Below, piece by piece: positions 14,821 to 62,092 of a DNA stretch of 64,000 bases. Both the position numbers and the translations under genes were made by a program. The first letter of the stretch is position 1. Each line of letters opens with the position of its first letter. Origin of the DNA: Alphaproteobacteria bacterium (GTDB lineage Bacteria; Pseudomonadota; Alphaproteobacteria; Micavibrionales; Micavibrionaceae); NCBI GenBank assembly GCA_024275825.1, contig JAJRYK010000023.1, positions 1-64,000 of the forward strand. The letters run 5' to 3'. Below the pieces are notes generated by a model. That model saw only the letters and a list, made by a program, of their open reading frames with translations, ran no database searches and was not told the origin of the DNA.

Positions 14821-14835
14821 TTGTATTCTCCCAGT

Positions 14836-14920
14836 GTCATCCCGACCGAAGCGTCAGCGTAGTGAAGAGATCTGATCCAATGTTGATAGGTTCAAATTTC
14901 TCGGCTACGCTCGGGATGAC
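14836..14920. repeat. GTCATCCCGA...TCGGGATGAC palindromic repeat
   Basis: The element starts GTCATCCCGACCGAAGCG and ends CGCTCGGGATGAC, the same end sequences as the copy inside purQ. It is followed at about 14931-14966 by half of a 'tccGTGTTCATCTGCGTTCATCTG' repeat related to the one at 18557-18713. Confidence 0.8.
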
Positions 14921-14967
14921 AGAGTATAAAAAATCCGTGTTCATCTGCGTTCATCTGTGGTTTCTTA

Positions 14968-18556: not shown

Positions 18557-18713
18557 TTAACCGCGGATGGACGCAGATAAACGCGGATAATAAAAATTAA
18601 ACTACAGGGCGCGCAGAGTTCGCAGAGTTTTATATATATGCTTCTCTGTCTATCTCTGCGCGCCCTGTAGTGAAATAAAAATCCGCGCTTATCTGCGTCC
18701 ATCCGCGGTTTCT
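18557..18713. repeat. Nested long palindrome (AACCGCGGATGG... type)
   Basis: Outer arms AACCGCGGATGGACGCAGAT and ATCTGCGTCCATCCGCGGTT enclose a second inverted pair, ACTACAGGGCGCGCAGAG at 18601 and CTCTGCGCGCCCTGTAGT ending at 18672. It fills the gap between the lipoprotein gene and hom. A relict of the outer type lies at about 14931-14966. Confidence 0.85.
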
Positions 18714-54932: not shown

Positions 54933-54941
54933 ATGTTTATT

Positions 54942-55030
54942 ACCACAAAGCCTCAAAGCACACAAAAAATCACAAAGAAAAAGGATTCAAAAAACTTTGT
55001 GATTCTTAGAGATCTTTGTGCCTTTGTGGT
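54942..55030. repeat. ACCACAAAG...CTTTGTGGT palindrome between nuoE and nuoF
   Basis: ACCACAAAGCCTCAAAGCACACAAA pairs with TTTGTGCCTTTGTGGT and inner TCACAAAG/CTTTGTGA arms. It occupies the gap between nuoE and nuoF and is close in sequence to the copy between purQ and purL. Confidence 0.8.
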
Positions 55031-55053
55031 GAATAGAAAAAGGATTTAATTAA

Positions 55054-57122: not shown

Positions 57123-57998
57123 CTATCCAAAATACCGCGCTGCATTCTTAAACAGTGCCATGCCATCCGCTATTTCCGGTAAATCTTTGCCTTCGCGCTG
57201 GGCTTTGTCTTTCAGCTCGTGATAATCGTCGCGTTGCCAGGGGAACATGCCGCGTTCGGGGTGGGGCATTATGGCTAGGATTCGGCCGGTTTTGTCGGTT
57301 ATGGCGGCGATGTCGGAGAGGGAGCCGTTGGGGTTATAGGGGAATTGCCCGTTCGCCAACACCATTTTTTTGTCATCCCGTTGTAAAACGGGATCGGGGT
57401 GGTTTATGTCTCCCCGGTCCCGGCTTTCATCGGGATGACATTTAACGTACTGAAGCGCGATCTGGCCGTTTTTCTTTAGTGATTTCAGGGTTTTATCATC
57501 CATCATGAAGCGGCCTTCGCCGTGGGCTACGGGGATGTGCATGGATTTGATGCCGGCAAGCCATGGGGAATTGGTTTTGCTATTGGCCTTTACATCAACC
57601 CACCGGCATTGATAGCGCGCGGTTAGATTGTGCGTGACGGCGATTTTGCGCACGCCGAACGCTTTGTCAGAGCCGGGGATCAGGCCGAGATTGGCCATGA
57701 TCTGGCAGCCATTACAAACGCCGAGCATCAGCATGTCGCGCTCAAGAAACGTCCGCAGATCATCCCAGAGTGAGAGCTTCATTTTCTGCGCAAACGCATT
57801 GCCGGAGCCGGTATCATCGCCGTATGAGAACCCGCCGGGAATGACGAGGGTTTGATAATCGTTCAGCTCTGCCGGGTTTTCGATTATATCGTTAATATGG
57901 CGAATCACGCCATCCATGCCGACATGGTTAAAGGCGTGAAGCGTTTCCTCTTCACAGTTTAATCCGTATCCGGCGAGTATCAGGGCTTTTGCTGTCAT
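57123..57998 (-). CDS. purQ: Phosphoribosylformylglycinamidine synthase glutaminase subunit, with an in-frame repeat insertion
   Basis: PurQ releases ammonia from glutamine for the fourth step of purine synthesis. The class I amidotransferase triad is seen: Cys95 in 'MLGVCNGCQIM', and His and Glu in 'MPHPERGMFPW'. At 291 residues it belongs to the longer PurQ type. Residues about 187-209 ('CHPDESRDRGDINHPDPVLQ' region) are encoded by a palindromic repeat at 57372-57439, between 'QIALQYV' and 'MVLANGQFPYNPNGS', which are contiguous blocks in relatives. It precedes purL on the same strand direction (purL is transcribed first). Confidence 0.93.
   Translation of the reverse strand: MTAKALILAGYGLNCEEETLHAFNHVGMDGVIRHINDIIENPAELNDYQTLVIPGGFSYGDDTGSGNAFAQKMKLSLWDDLRTFLERDMLMLGVCNGCQIMANLGLIPGSDKAFGVRKIAVTHNLTARYQCRWVDVKANSKTNSPWLAGIKSMHIPVAHGEGRFMMDDKTLKSLKKNGQIALQYVKCHPDESRDRGDINHPDPVLQRDDKKMVLANGQFPYNPNGSLSDIAAITDKTGRILAIMPHPERGMFPWQRDDYHELKDKAQREGKDLPEIADGMALFKNAARYFG
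57372..57439. repeat. Palindromic repeat inside purQ, in frame
   Basis: GTCATCCCGTTG...TCATCGGGATGAC, with inner CCCGTT/AACGGG and CCCCGG-type arms. The ends match the intergenic copy at 14836-14920. The purQ frame passes through without a stop. Confidence 0.88.
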
Positions 57999-58035
57999 AA
58001 TTTACCGTTTTTATTTTTGAAGCACGAAGGTTTTT

Positions 58036-58131
58036 TTCACCACAAAGGCTCAAAGGACACAAAGGTTCTCAAAGAAAAAGAATTTAAAAACCTTTGTGAT
58101 TCTTTGTGTCCTTTGAGCCTTTGTGGTGAAA
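58036..58131. repeat. TTCACCACAAAGG...CCTTTGTGGTGAA palindrome between purL and purQ
   Basis: TTCACCACAAAGGCTCAAAG at the left matches CTTTGAGCCTTTGTGGTGAA at the right almost perfectly, continuing with GACACAAAG/CTTTGTGTC. It fills the gap between the purL stop and the purQ start. Confidence 0.9.
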
Positions 58132-58136
58132 TCATT

Positions 58137-61100
58137 TTAATAGTCTCTCAATGGCGCTTTGTAGGCCTCTTCTAATGCTTTAAGTTTTACGTCGAGTGTA
58201 TTGTTAATTATCAGTTTATCCTCTTCCGTAACCGTACCAATGCGGTAATAGCTGCCGAAGCTTTCCAGGCTTTGTTCGAAGGGCTCTTTGTGGGCTGGGG
58301 CGACGGTAACGAGGATGCGGCCGTTGCTTTCGGAGAAGAGGAGTTTGTCGGCGCGCAGGTCGCTGTTCAAACACTCCAGATCAATCTCCATCCCCATTTG
58401 CCCGGCAATGGCTTTTTTCGCTAGCGCAACGCCTAGCCCGCCAAAGCCAACGCCGATGGCCGAAGCGATGTAGCGCTCTCTCGCGATTTTGCTATAGAGC
58501 GCGTAAAGCTGCGCATTCTTTTCGCCGTCGACTTGTGGAACGTTTTGCCCCAAATGTCCGTGATGATCGTAATATTCGCTGCCGCCCAGCTCGTCCCTGG
58601 TTTCGCCCAGAAGATAGATGAAATCGCCGGCCGCCTTGGGCGCGGGCGATATCGATTGCTCCACATTCGGGATAACGCCGATGGAGGATATGAGAAGGGT
58701 GGGCGGGGCGGAGATTTTCACCGGCTGCCCGTCTGCATCAAAGCCTTTAAAGTCGTTGAACATGCTGTCCTTGCCAGAGATAAAGGGCGCTTTATAAAGC
58801 ACGGCAAGCTCATAAATAGCCTCGGCTGCGCGTTTTAGCTGATAAAGACGCTCCGGCTCATCCGAGGAGCACCAACAGAAATTATCCAGCAGGGCGAGGT
58901 GGTTGTAATCCACCCCTGCCGCCACCGCGTTGCGCACCGCCATATCCAGCGCGCTTGCCGCCATGTGGTAGCAATCAATATCGCCATAGCGCGGGGCAAG
59001 GCCTTGAGACAGCACAACGCCCTTGGGCGAGGTGAGCAGCGGGCGGGAAATGCTGGTCTCGCCATAGAGCCGCCCCGGCCCCTGAATAGGGCCAAGAACG
59101 GCGGAGCCTTGCACATTATGGTCGTATTGGGTTGCAATAAATTCCTTGGAGCAGATATTGAGGCGGGAAAGCATTTGCAGGAGCATAGTATCTAGAAAGC
59201 TGTCTTCCCCGCGAAAGCGGGGACCTTTCTTCAGTGCACTCAGGTCCCCGCTTTCGCGGGGAACGCACAATATATCAGGCTCCGGCTCACCGCCCTTAAT
59301 GGGTACAGTTTTCAGCGGCGTTTCGGGCAATCCGTCATGCAGGAAATCCATCTCCATATCCATGATGGTTTGGCCGTTATAGGTAATGTGCGAGCGGCCT
59401 GTGTCGGTGTAGGTGCCGATCACTGTGGCTTCAACGCCGCGCCGTGCCATAAGCTCTATTATTTTATCGGTATTTTTCGGCGGTACGGAGAGCGTCATGC
59501 GCTCCTGACTTTCGGAAATCCAGATTTCCCACGGCGCCATGCCGGGGTATTTCAGCGGCACTTTTTCCAGCTCCAGATGAAAGCCGCCAGACTGTTCTGC
59601 CATTTCGCCAACTGAAGATGACAGGCCGCCTGCGCCGTTATCGGTGATGGCGCTATACCAGCTATCGCCATTGGAATCGGACTTGCCGCGTAGCTCTTTG
59701 ATAATCGCATCGCTGAATTTCTTTTGCGTGATCGGGTCGCCGATTTGTACGGCGGTGGCGGGGGAGCCTTCATCAAGCGCGACAGAGCTAAACGTCGCGC
59801 CGTGAATGCCATCGCGGCCAACGCGCCCGCCAATCATCATGATTTTATCGCCGGGGTTGGCGCATTTCTCATGGCTGAGCTTGTCATTAATCATGCGCGG
59901 CATCAGGCCGATTGTGCCGACAAAGACTAGTGGCTTGCCGACATAGCGATCATCGAAATAGGCAAAGCCCTGCGGCGTTGGGATGCCGGATTGATTGCCG
60001 CCTGCCTCAACGCCAGCTACCACGCCGTTCATGATGGTTTCCGGGGAAAGGATGGGCGTTGTGAGATTTTTATCGCGGTAATACTCGAATCTGGGGACAG
60101 TTACTTTTTCAATGTCGCTATGCTGGTTATTTTCAGAGTCTTTGCCCTGAAAAAGTAACTGTCCCCGGCTTGCAGGGACAGGCGCGAGGCAATAGCCATA
60201 GCGGTTTATCACAGGTTTTGCGCCCATGCCAAAGCCCATGCAATCGCGATTTACGCCGACGATGCCGGTGATCGAACCGCCGAACGGATCGAGCGCAGAA
60301 GGGGAGTTGTGAGTCTCTACCTTGTCGGTAATCAGCCAGTCTTCGTCAAACACAATCCCGCCTGCATTATCGGAAAAGACAGAGAGGCAGAAATCCCCGT
60401 CAATTTCATCATTCCATCCATTTTTGCTTTCTCCACCCTTGCTTTCCCCGTGCAAACGGGGATCTTCCGCTGGTGAGGAAACAGGTCCCCGTTTGCACGG
60501 GGAAAGCAGCCTGGCTTGACGCGCCGCACGAATGTCCTGCGTGGCGCGCTTGATGTAATGCTTGTAAATCCCGTCCTTGATCTCATCAATGGAGGAGGCG
60601 AAAATGGTGTGTTTGCAATGCTCCGACCATGTTTGCGCGATGGTTTCCAGCTCAATATCCTTTGGCGCGCGGCCTTCGGTTTTAGCAAAATATTCTTGAA
60701 CAGCTTTCATATAGAGCAGGGACATGCCCAGCGGCCCGCGGCGAGAGCCATCGGCATTTGCGATTCCCTTATCGCCAATTTCGATCAGTGCCTCGTCAGA
60801 GATGTTTAGATCAACATCATCCGCCGCCGTTGTGCCTTCATGTTCTAGCGTGACGTTTGGCACAATAACGTCCATGCCGCCATCGGCCTCGAATTCATCG
60901 CGGGTTTTGATCGAAGCGCGCTGGATCAGGCTGTTTGATAGCTGCGCCGCCAGTAATTCGATATCGCTGCGCTCTAAATCTCCCGTGATCAGATAGAGGC
61001 GGGAGGAATAAACTTTATTGCTTTCCCCGCGAAAGCGGGGATCTTCTTGCGGCTTCAGGCTTCCGTTCTCACGAGGAAAGCAGGAAGAGGAGAGTTCGAG

Positions 61101-61406
61101 AAGTTCCTCCACCGTATGTCCTATATTATCCGTCACGCCGGGTAAGAAGCCAATTTCCAGCGCCCAATCGAATTTTAAATCTATGGTGTCATTCCCGCTT
61201 TCGCAGGGATGACGTATGAATGAAGACTGCGTCACCGGGTTGGTCACACTGCCGATTAAAACCGGGTCCATAATGGCCGCATTATCAGATGTATAAACAT
61301 CCACAACCCGCACGCTGGCGGGCTTATCCAGCGCGCTAAGCGCCCCCTCAATAATTTTCGCCCGACCATCGTCTTCGTGGGCTAGGATTTCTATTCTGTA
61401 TGACAT
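58137..61406 (-). CDS. purL: Phosphoribosylformylglycinamidine synthase, PurS-PurL fused form, with five in-frame repeat insertions
   Basis: PurL makes FGAM from FGAR using ATP and ammonia from PurQ. Residues 1-110 resemble PurS ('MSYRIEILAHEDDGRAKIIEG', 'LPGVTDNIGHTVEELL'); the rest is PurL: 'IAQTWSEHCKHTIF', 'VETHNSPSALDPFGGSITGIVGVNRD', 'DRYVGKPLVFVGTIG', 'ITDNGAGGLSSSVGEMA', 'HYYRI'-type end. The 1089 residues exceed the expected size by about 100. The excess maps to repeat-encoded peptides at residues about 65-73, 109-130, 300-322, 414-438 and 715-735, at junctions between conserved blocks. The frame is open throughout, so the protein is probably made and active. Confidence 0.93.
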   Translation of the reverse strand: MSYRIEILAHEDDGRAKIIEGALSALDKPASVRVVDVYTSDNAAIMDPVLIGSVTNPVTQSSFIRHPCESGNDTIDLKFDWALEIGFLPGVTDNIGHTVEELLELSSSCFPRENGSLKPQEDPRFRGESNKVYSSRLYLITGDLERSDIELLAAQLSNSLIQRASIKTRDEFEADGGMDVIVPNVTLEHEGTTAADDVDLNISDEALIEIGDKGIANADGSRRGPLGMSLLYMKAVQEYFAKTEGRAPKDIELETIAQTWSEHCKHTIFASSIDEIKDGIYKHYIKRATQDIRAARQARLLSPCKRGPVSSPAEDPRLHGESKGGESKNGWNDEIDGDFCLSVFSDNAGGIVFDEDWLITDKVETHNSPSALDPFGGSITGIVGVNRDCMGFGMGAKPVINRYGYCLAPVPASRGQLLFQGKDSENNQHSDIEKVTVPRFEYYRDKNLTTPILSPETIMNGVVAGVEAGGNQSGIPTPQGFAYFDDRYVGKPLVFVGTIGLMPRMINDKLSHEKCANPGDKIMMIGGRVGRDGIHGATFSSVALDEGSPATAVQIGDPITQKKFSDAIIKELRGKSDSNGDSWYSAITDNGAGGLSSSVGEMAEQSGGFHLELEKVPLKYPGMAPWEIWISESQERMTLSVPPKNTDKIIELMARRGVEATVIGTYTDTGRSHITYNGQTIMDMEMDFLHDGLPETPLKTVPIKGGEPEPDILCVPRESGDLSALKKGPRFRGEDSFLDTMLLQMLSRLNICSKEFIATQYDHNVQGSAVLGPIQGPGRLYGETSISRPLLTSPKGVVLSQGLAPRYGDIDCYHMAASALDMAVRNAVAAGVDYNHLALLDNFCWCSSDEPERLYQLKRAAEAIYELAVLYKAPFISGKDSMFNDFKGFDADGQPVKISAPPTLLISSIGVIPNVEQSISPAPKAAGDFIYLLGETRDELGGSEYYDHHGHLGQNVPQVDGEKNAQLYALYSKIARERYIASAIGVGFGGLGVALAKKAIAGQMGMEIDLECLNSDLRADKLLFSESNGRILVTVAPAHKEPFEQSLESFGSYYRIGTVTEEDKLIINNTLDVKLKALEEAYKAPLRDY
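59203..59264. repeat. Palindromic repeat inside purL, copy near residue 725
   Basis: CTTCCCCGCGAAAGCGGGGACC and GGTCCCCGCTTTCGCGGGGAAC are inverted around a short centre. Read in the purL frame it gives 'VPRESGDLSALKKGPRFRGE'. Confidence 0.93.
60093..60166. repeat. GGGGACAGTTAC palindrome inside purL (19-bp perfect arms)
   Basis: GGGGACAGTTACTTTTTCA and TGAAAAAGTAACTGTCCCC are exact reverse complements separated by 36 bases. This is a different family from the other purL insertions. Read in frame it gives 'GQLLFQGKDSENNQHSDIEK' and a few more residues. Confidence 0.95.
60441..60507. repeat. Palindromic repeat inside purL, copy near residue 310
   Basis: GCTTTCCCCGTGCAAACGGGGATC and GGTCCCCGTTTGCACGGGGAAAGC are inverted. 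In frame it reads 'SPCKRGPVSSPAEDPRLHGE'. Confidence 0.93.
61019..61082. repeat. Palindromic repeat inside purL, copy near residue 120
   Basis: GCTTTCCCCGCGAAAGCGGGGATC at the left; the right arm has diverged (TTCCGTTCTCACGAGGAAAGC). In frame it reads 'CFPRENGSLKPQEDPRFRGE'. Confidence 0.88.
61188..61213. repeat. Short palindromic repeat half inside purL, near residue 69
   Basis: GTCATTCCCGCTTTCGCAGGGATGAC is a single imperfect hairpin with the family's GTCAT...ATGAC ends. In frame it reads 'RHPCESGNDT'. Confidence 0.8.
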
Positions 61407-62020: not shown

Positions 62021-62092
62021 CTGCTTTCCCTGCGCAGGTGGGGTTCTCGTTATATTCAGATCAACAGGTCCCTGCTTTCGCAGGGAATGCAG
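62021..62092. repeat. Palindromic repeat in front of nuoG
   Basis: CTGCTTTCCCTGCGCAGG at the left and CCTGCTTTCGCAGGGAATGCAG at the right, the same family as the insertions inside purL. It ends nine bases before the nuoG ATG, so it covers the usual place of the promoter and reaches the ribosome site. Confidence 0.85.

Follow-up and report, generated by a model that had tools for sequence, protein, structure and literature searches.

It has long been asked whether palindromes inside genes are chance debris or show a preference for certain genes. The question is raised again by a 64,000-nt stretch of contig JAJRYK010000023.1 (the window) from a Micavibrio-type alphaproteobacterium, whose named relatives are Micavibrio sp. 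and related alphaproteobacterial MAGs. Here the genes for both subunits of FGAM synthase, purQ and purL, appear to carry palindromic repeats in frame (Table 1). Are these repeats insertions, and why would both subunits of one enzyme carry them?

An earlier note on this DNA had placed a palindromic repeat in frame inside purQ at 57372-57439, and we found it there; with its TGTC tags it is 70 nt long and spans 57371-57440. On the coding strand it reads TGTCATCCCGATGAAAGCCGGGACCGGGGAGACATAAACCACCCCGATCCCGTTTTACAACGGGATGACA, two facing hairpin units each starting with TGTC, with TGTCATCCCG...CGGGATGACA as outer ends. Translation of the ORF runs through the element without a stop, as had been claimed, although it yields 23 residues and not about 22. 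Folded as single-stranded RNA, the element reaches -39 kcal/mol (z=-7.2), which none of 200 shuffles equalled, and GTCATCCCG has five occurrences in the window where 0.5 would be expected (0 of 100 shuffles reached five). The ends indeed match intergenic elements (window 14835-14921; L084, L115 and L118), but the genome holds no second full-length copy, the best partners being half-units of 21 nt. A phage-database search with the element gave no match. The element is very probably a mobile palindrome of the REP (repetitive extragenic palindrome) kind, non-autonomous and with CGTC/TGTC tags, in the form of a head-to-head dimer. Other palindromes lie nearby. A longer, near-perfect one (CACCACAAAGGCTCAAAGGACACAAAG...), different from the purQ element, is found between purL and purQ (58033-58130) and again two genes on (54936-55033, 84% identical), with more copies in L115 and L133. 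Another palindromic family is represented at 18559-18710 by an inverted pair of CCGCGGATGGACGCAGATAAACGCGGAT, with 30-nt arms that are 97% complementary and 92 nt apart.

The 23 residues are not conserved in PurQ of genomes lacking the repeat. In alignments these proteins, spirochaete outgroups included, instead have a short, ungapped and conserved KPDG turn at the site (consensus Y-x-K-P-D-G-x-x-A-x-G-E-F), so the possibility that the segment is an ordinary part of PurQ, which the earlier note had left standing, falls away. Judged from these alignments, 57371-57440 is an insertion, and the view that a palindromic repeat is translated as an extra PurQ loop is supported. The catalytic motifs of PurQ, GVCNGCQ (C95) and MPHPE (H246, E248), are intact. 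In an AlphaFold2 model built from 43 sequences (mean pLDDT 87) the insert is predicted to form a loop that stays under a pLDDT of 60; nowhere but within residues 193-205 does the model drop below 50, and the flanking strands are formed by residues 180-187 and 212-214. The best PDB matches of the model are FGAM synthases, among them 1T3T and 3D54_D. In Salmonella PurL the place of the insert corresponds to a loop of seven residues, between about 1230 and 1238. The loop is probably surface-exposed and neutral.

PurL was also said to carry repeat-encoded loops, and four REP-type inserts are present in it (sites A to D, Table 1); the protein is 1089 aa long in the window versus about 970-1000 aa in genomes without PurQ inserts. 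Three of the four PurL inserts bear a GCTT tag, and the PurQ, site C and site D inserts form coding-strand hairpins of -39 to -50 kcal/mol. Just four half-units of the GCTTTCCCC type occur in the whole genome of the window (G000), three of them in purL. In the predicted structure of PurL (mean pLDDT 65) the segments with the site B, C and D inserts score below 50, which says little on them, since conserved parts of PurL do so too. PurL has about 27 further extra residues at about 413-440 (~60087-60170), RGQLLFQGKDSENNQHSDIEKVTVPRF versus QKHLPFKKENNKETEKVTIP, which are common only to the same-genus genome G001 and are not obviously REP. A further PurL insert, LKGEGSASAQGEGQ, is seen in L201 (G028) at the equivalent of residue ~739; it derives from another dispersed repeat, CCCTCTCCCT...AGGGAGAGGG, of which dimers also occur in G000 (L112, L127).

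Table 1. Genes and palindromic elements of the purL-purQ locus (positions in the window)
Feature	Position	Strand	Description	Remark
purQ	57123..57998	-	FGAM synthase glutaminase subunit, 291 aa	Pfam GATase_5, E=2.5e-76
REP head-to-head dimer inside purQ	57371..57440	-	PurQ residues 187-209, CHPDESRDRGDINHPDPVLQRDD	absent from non-carrier PurQs
purL	58137..61406	-	FGAM synthase synthetase subunit, 1089 aa	
PurL site D insert	59201..59267	-	CVPRESGDLSALKKGPRFRGED	GCTTTCCCC-type REP dimer; similar G117 insert at same site
PurL site C insert	60440..60508	-	LSPCKRGPVSSPAEDPRLHGESK	GCTTTCCCC-type REP dimer
PurL site B insert	61020..61082	-	CFPRENGSLKPQEDPRFRGES	partly decayed GCTTTCCCC-type REP dimer; half-unit 61024-61045
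PurL site A insert	61188..61214	-	RHPCESGND	single CGTC REP unit CGTCATCCCTGCGAAAGCGGGAATGAC
Intergenic REP dimer	62022..62091	.	GCTTTCCC type	about 0.6 kb upstream of purL

We surveyed 104 genomes of the family, about 55 of which have PurQ of the window type. The family holds two PurQ types, one of ~265 aa, as in the window, and one of ~230 aa in other genera, which are about 35% identical; the nearest outgroups of the ~265-aa type are Spirochaetota and a Peregrinibacterium, and the patchy distribution of the two types suggests an old replacement by horizontal transfer. Among the window-type proteins seven carry inserts (G000, G010, G028, G058, G087, G116 and G117), all in the same loop. They comprise at least three element types (TGTCATCCCG..., TGTCATCCTGAG... 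and GCTTCCCCCG...) and others, and the encoded peptides differ among carriers. On a PurQ tree computed without the insert columns, the trait requires six changes, each forced by well-supported branches (a smaller tree gave four, and six once G087 and G118 were added). These changes are likely to be mainly gains, because non-carriers keep the ancestral turn; so counted from the tree, at least five gains would have occurred, in the four isolated carriers and at least once in genus g10.

The inserts of the two subunits go together. In a comparison of 38 PurLs, all seven genomes with a PurQ insert had REP inserts in PurL, versus none of the 31 others (Fisher 8e-8, with relatedness ignored), and all six phylogenetically independent pairs were concordant (sign test p=0.031, the minimum that six pairs can give). 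The PurL inserts occupy five recurrent sites, near residues 60-75, 107, 298, 712 and 1013 of the window protein. Close relatives can differ completely: G010 has three inserts in purLQ and G118 none. The earlier note had considered repeats in both subunits hard to explain by chance if insertions are rare, and such inserts do prove rare in other coding DNA of the same genomes. Given the coupling of PurQ with PurL and the excess in purL-purQ over other coding DNA, chance does not explain the inserts in both subunits.

That excess comes from a census of elements of all types, which sampled half of G000 and about a fifth each of G010, G117 and the non-carrier G088, with genes called as the longest non-overlapping ORFs (891 genes). 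Elements were detected as tag pairs with complementary arms; a finder that demanded stable hairpins missed GAGCGAAGC-type elements. Decayed copies escape detection by tag pairs, which shows two of the four PurL inserts of the window. The G000 sample (965 kb) contained 24 palindromic dimers, compared with 0.2 from a Markov control: 17 intergenic, two at gene edges and five inside ORFs (one in purQ, two in purL, one in CobT and one near the start of an unassigned ORF). Most intergenic units of this genome have the form GTC-AT....-loop-....AT-CCA. In the 1.6 Mb of coding DNA sampled from the three carriers, eight in-ORF elements fell in purL-purQ and five elsewhere. G010 had one each in purL and purQ and no other in its sample, and G117 had one in purQ, two in purL and one each in the genes for PepN, RNase HII and Dus; the single in-ORF dimer of G088 is in PriA. 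PurQ was then left out, because the genomes had been chosen by their PurQ insert: five of the remaining ten in-ORF dimers lie in purL, which makes up 0.6% of coding bases (p about 2e-9, or about 1e-5 without G000, both assuming independent placement and therefore indicative only). Similarly to the GCTTTCCCC-type half-units of G000, three of the four CCTGAG-type units in the G010 genome are in purLQ, and the same finder detected no in-ORF elements in the neighbouring genes that the retrieved purLQ loci of the carriers include. The in-ORF counts together with these genome-wide counts indicate that the elements are concentrated in purLQ, though not exclusive to FGAM synthase. The inserts outside purLQ are likewise in frame: in CobT (G000, L105:8388-10325), a PepN-type M1 peptidase (G117, L257:4543-7233), RNase HII (G117, L257:7196-7948), dihydrouridine synthase (Dus; G117, L262:13045-14118) and PriA (G088, L231:12621-14912). 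Two further sequences, GGGGCTGTCGTAGATAAGT (window about 121-139, and within the first or last ~120 bases of many G000 contigs) and CAATTAATAATTGC, recur about 100-200 nt from contig ends and probably mark the ends of multi-copy insertion sequences that interrupted the assembly.

REPs inside genes have been described before, in Rickettsia, Xanthomonas and others. The closest likeness is to the CGTC-tagged REPs, whose hosts include Micavibrio aeruginosavorus (CGTC-1 family): short GC-rich hairpin units, also as head-to-head dimers, that are mostly intergenic, sometimes lie inside ORFs and encode 20-30 residues, and were reported without a dedicated transposase (Di Nocera et al. 2013, PMC3733652). 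Their units have an unpaired CGTC (or TGTC, CCTC) tag at one end, a stem of 8-9 bp beginning with AT pairs, a loop of 4-5 nt and a three-base tail that is mostly CCA, a common feature and not a strict criterion (PMC3733652). The purQ element has a TGTC tag at both ends, and one of its units, ATCCCGTT-GTAA-AACGGGAT, has a stem of 8 bp and a loop of 4 nt; the other is degenerate (ATCCCGATGAAAGCCGGGAC, two mismatch positions). Its tail is CGG, unlike the CCA of most intergenic units in the same genome, and the GCTT tag of the three PurL inserts also departs from the CGTC type. Like CGTC REPs, head-to-head dimers are dispersed in the genome, and related copies of the purQ element occur in other genera. 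Rickettsia palindromic elements (RPEs; Ogata et al. 2000, 2002), of which RPE-4 and RPE-6 are CGTC REPs (PMC3733652), are summarised in PMC10969869 as in-frame, translated elements of about 150 bp in many unrelated housekeeping genes. The purQ palindrome resembles them in lying, by its sequence, in frame within a conserved protein, but its host is a Micavibrio-type alphaproteobacterium, it is about 70 bp long, the peptides differ between carriers, and the inserts are concentrated in purL and purQ. With REPINs and RAYT-mobilised REPs the element shares the organisation of non-autonomous inverted REP pairs, while their tag is GTAG and not TGTC. For CGTC REPs, different elements were found at about the same site in recB of two Xanthomonas species, and it was considered hard to believe that DNA-repair genes were targets by chance (PMC3733652). 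The unexpected part here is the recurrence in PurQ-PurL: in this family one two-subunit enzyme is hit in at least five lineages, in the same PurQ loop and always in both subunits together.

Which process filled these loops? A single ancestral insertion, lost in most descendants, might account for the one PurQ loop shared by all inserts and for a few similar pairs of inserts. However, non-carriers and outgroups have an intact KPDG turn, so losses would have had to restore the turn exactly; moreover, G010 and G117, though members of one genus, have different element families there, and each carrier lineage has close non-carrier relatives, making this origin extremely unlikely. Decay of purLQ under relaxed selection in the carriers, which would let inserts accumulate in purL and purQ, is also highly improbable, since every insert found keeps the reading frame, the active-site residues are unaltered, carriers retain purF and purH, and PurL branches are mostly no longer than those of sister non-carriers (the exception being L044/G058, 0.19 versus 0.085). 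Pathway loss does not account for the hits on FGAM synthase. Whole-gene transfer of a decorated purLQ cassette was rejected on the trees and on flank identities. Short-range recombination moving just the insert-bearing loops between Micavibrio genera would fit two pairs: the PurQ inserts of G000 and G087 are 90% identical at the same site, whereas copies elsewhere are 72-77% identical, and at PurL site D the inserts of G000 and G117 have even the adjacent codons, SFLDT, in common. Yet the DNA around these inserts, in purQ as in purL, is no more than about 70% identical and shows no block of higher identity next to the insert, neither the PurQ nor the PurL tree unites these carriers (joining G000 to G087 in the PurQ tree gives a borderline p-AU of 0.050), and most carriers bear different elements; we regard such transfer as rather unlikely.

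Two further possibilities address the joint occurrence of inserts in PurL and PurQ. A founder REP, lying in purLQ or close by, could have seeded copies within a few kb, as the unit counts of G000 and G010 and the related dimer 0.6 kb upstream of purL would suggest. Local copying agrees with G010 and with sites B to D of G000, but not with genomes whose inserts belong to several families (in G000, PurQ and PurL site A as opposed to sites B-D; also G117 and G116), and the neighbouring genes, in which the same finder saw no in-ORF elements, also speak against it, so that local spread as the explanation is possible but doubtful. Alternatively, the inserts may be selected: hairpins or disordered loops would lower or tune the synthesis or activity of FGAM synthase in a changed purine economy, with convergent acquisition in both subunits, for example in lineages taking nucleotides from prey. 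The all-or-none coupling in six independent pairs, the stable coding-strand hairpins, the difference between G010 and G118 and the strong excess over other genes would all be expected, but element families, reading frames and PurL sites vary between lineages, and other intragenic REPs occupy unrelated genes. On this evidence selection is unlikely, and a little less probable again is a selected or preferential targeting of FGAM synthase by palindromes whose mRNA hairpins or loops alter the amount or action of the enzyme, with lineages switching between decorated and undecorated states. The number of REP copies does not set carriage, as PurQ inserts are lacking in G036, G016, G011 and G029, which all have several to many related elements; G019 has the most related elements, yet bears the other, shorter PurQ type.

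The best explanation, which we consider highly likely, is selfish insertion filtered by loop tolerance. A palindromic REP dimer, arriving presumably by transposition or copying of REPs, would insert into the PurQ turn between two strands, its phase and length keeping the purQ frame open so that it is translated as a flexible extra loop. Insertions that break the frame or fall outside tolerant loops would be purged by selection, leaving the surviving copies clustered in a handful of recurrent loops of the two subunits; in at least five lineages of the family, different REP families would have done this on separate occasions. FGAM synthase with inserts presumably works, given the conserved catalytic residues and the purF and purH kept in carriers. 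Loop tolerance explains the recurrence of the same sites within PurQ and PurL. By itself it does not explain the sparing of other genes or the all-or-none close relatives, since other large enzymes should then carry comparable inserts, and five were found elsewhere against eight in the pair. We rank insertion with loop tolerance first and regard local spread or small-scale recombination as contributors; the alternatives are not mutually exclusive.

The PurQ-PurL enzyme is thus a real insertion hotspot for mobile palindromes in the Micavibrio (predatory-type) family. Since one loop has gained inserts independently at least five times, both subunits are affected and close undecorated relatives are at hand, the question of debris versus preference becomes testable, and the inserts provide a natural series of tolerated insertions of 20-30 residues in a well-studied amidotransferase.
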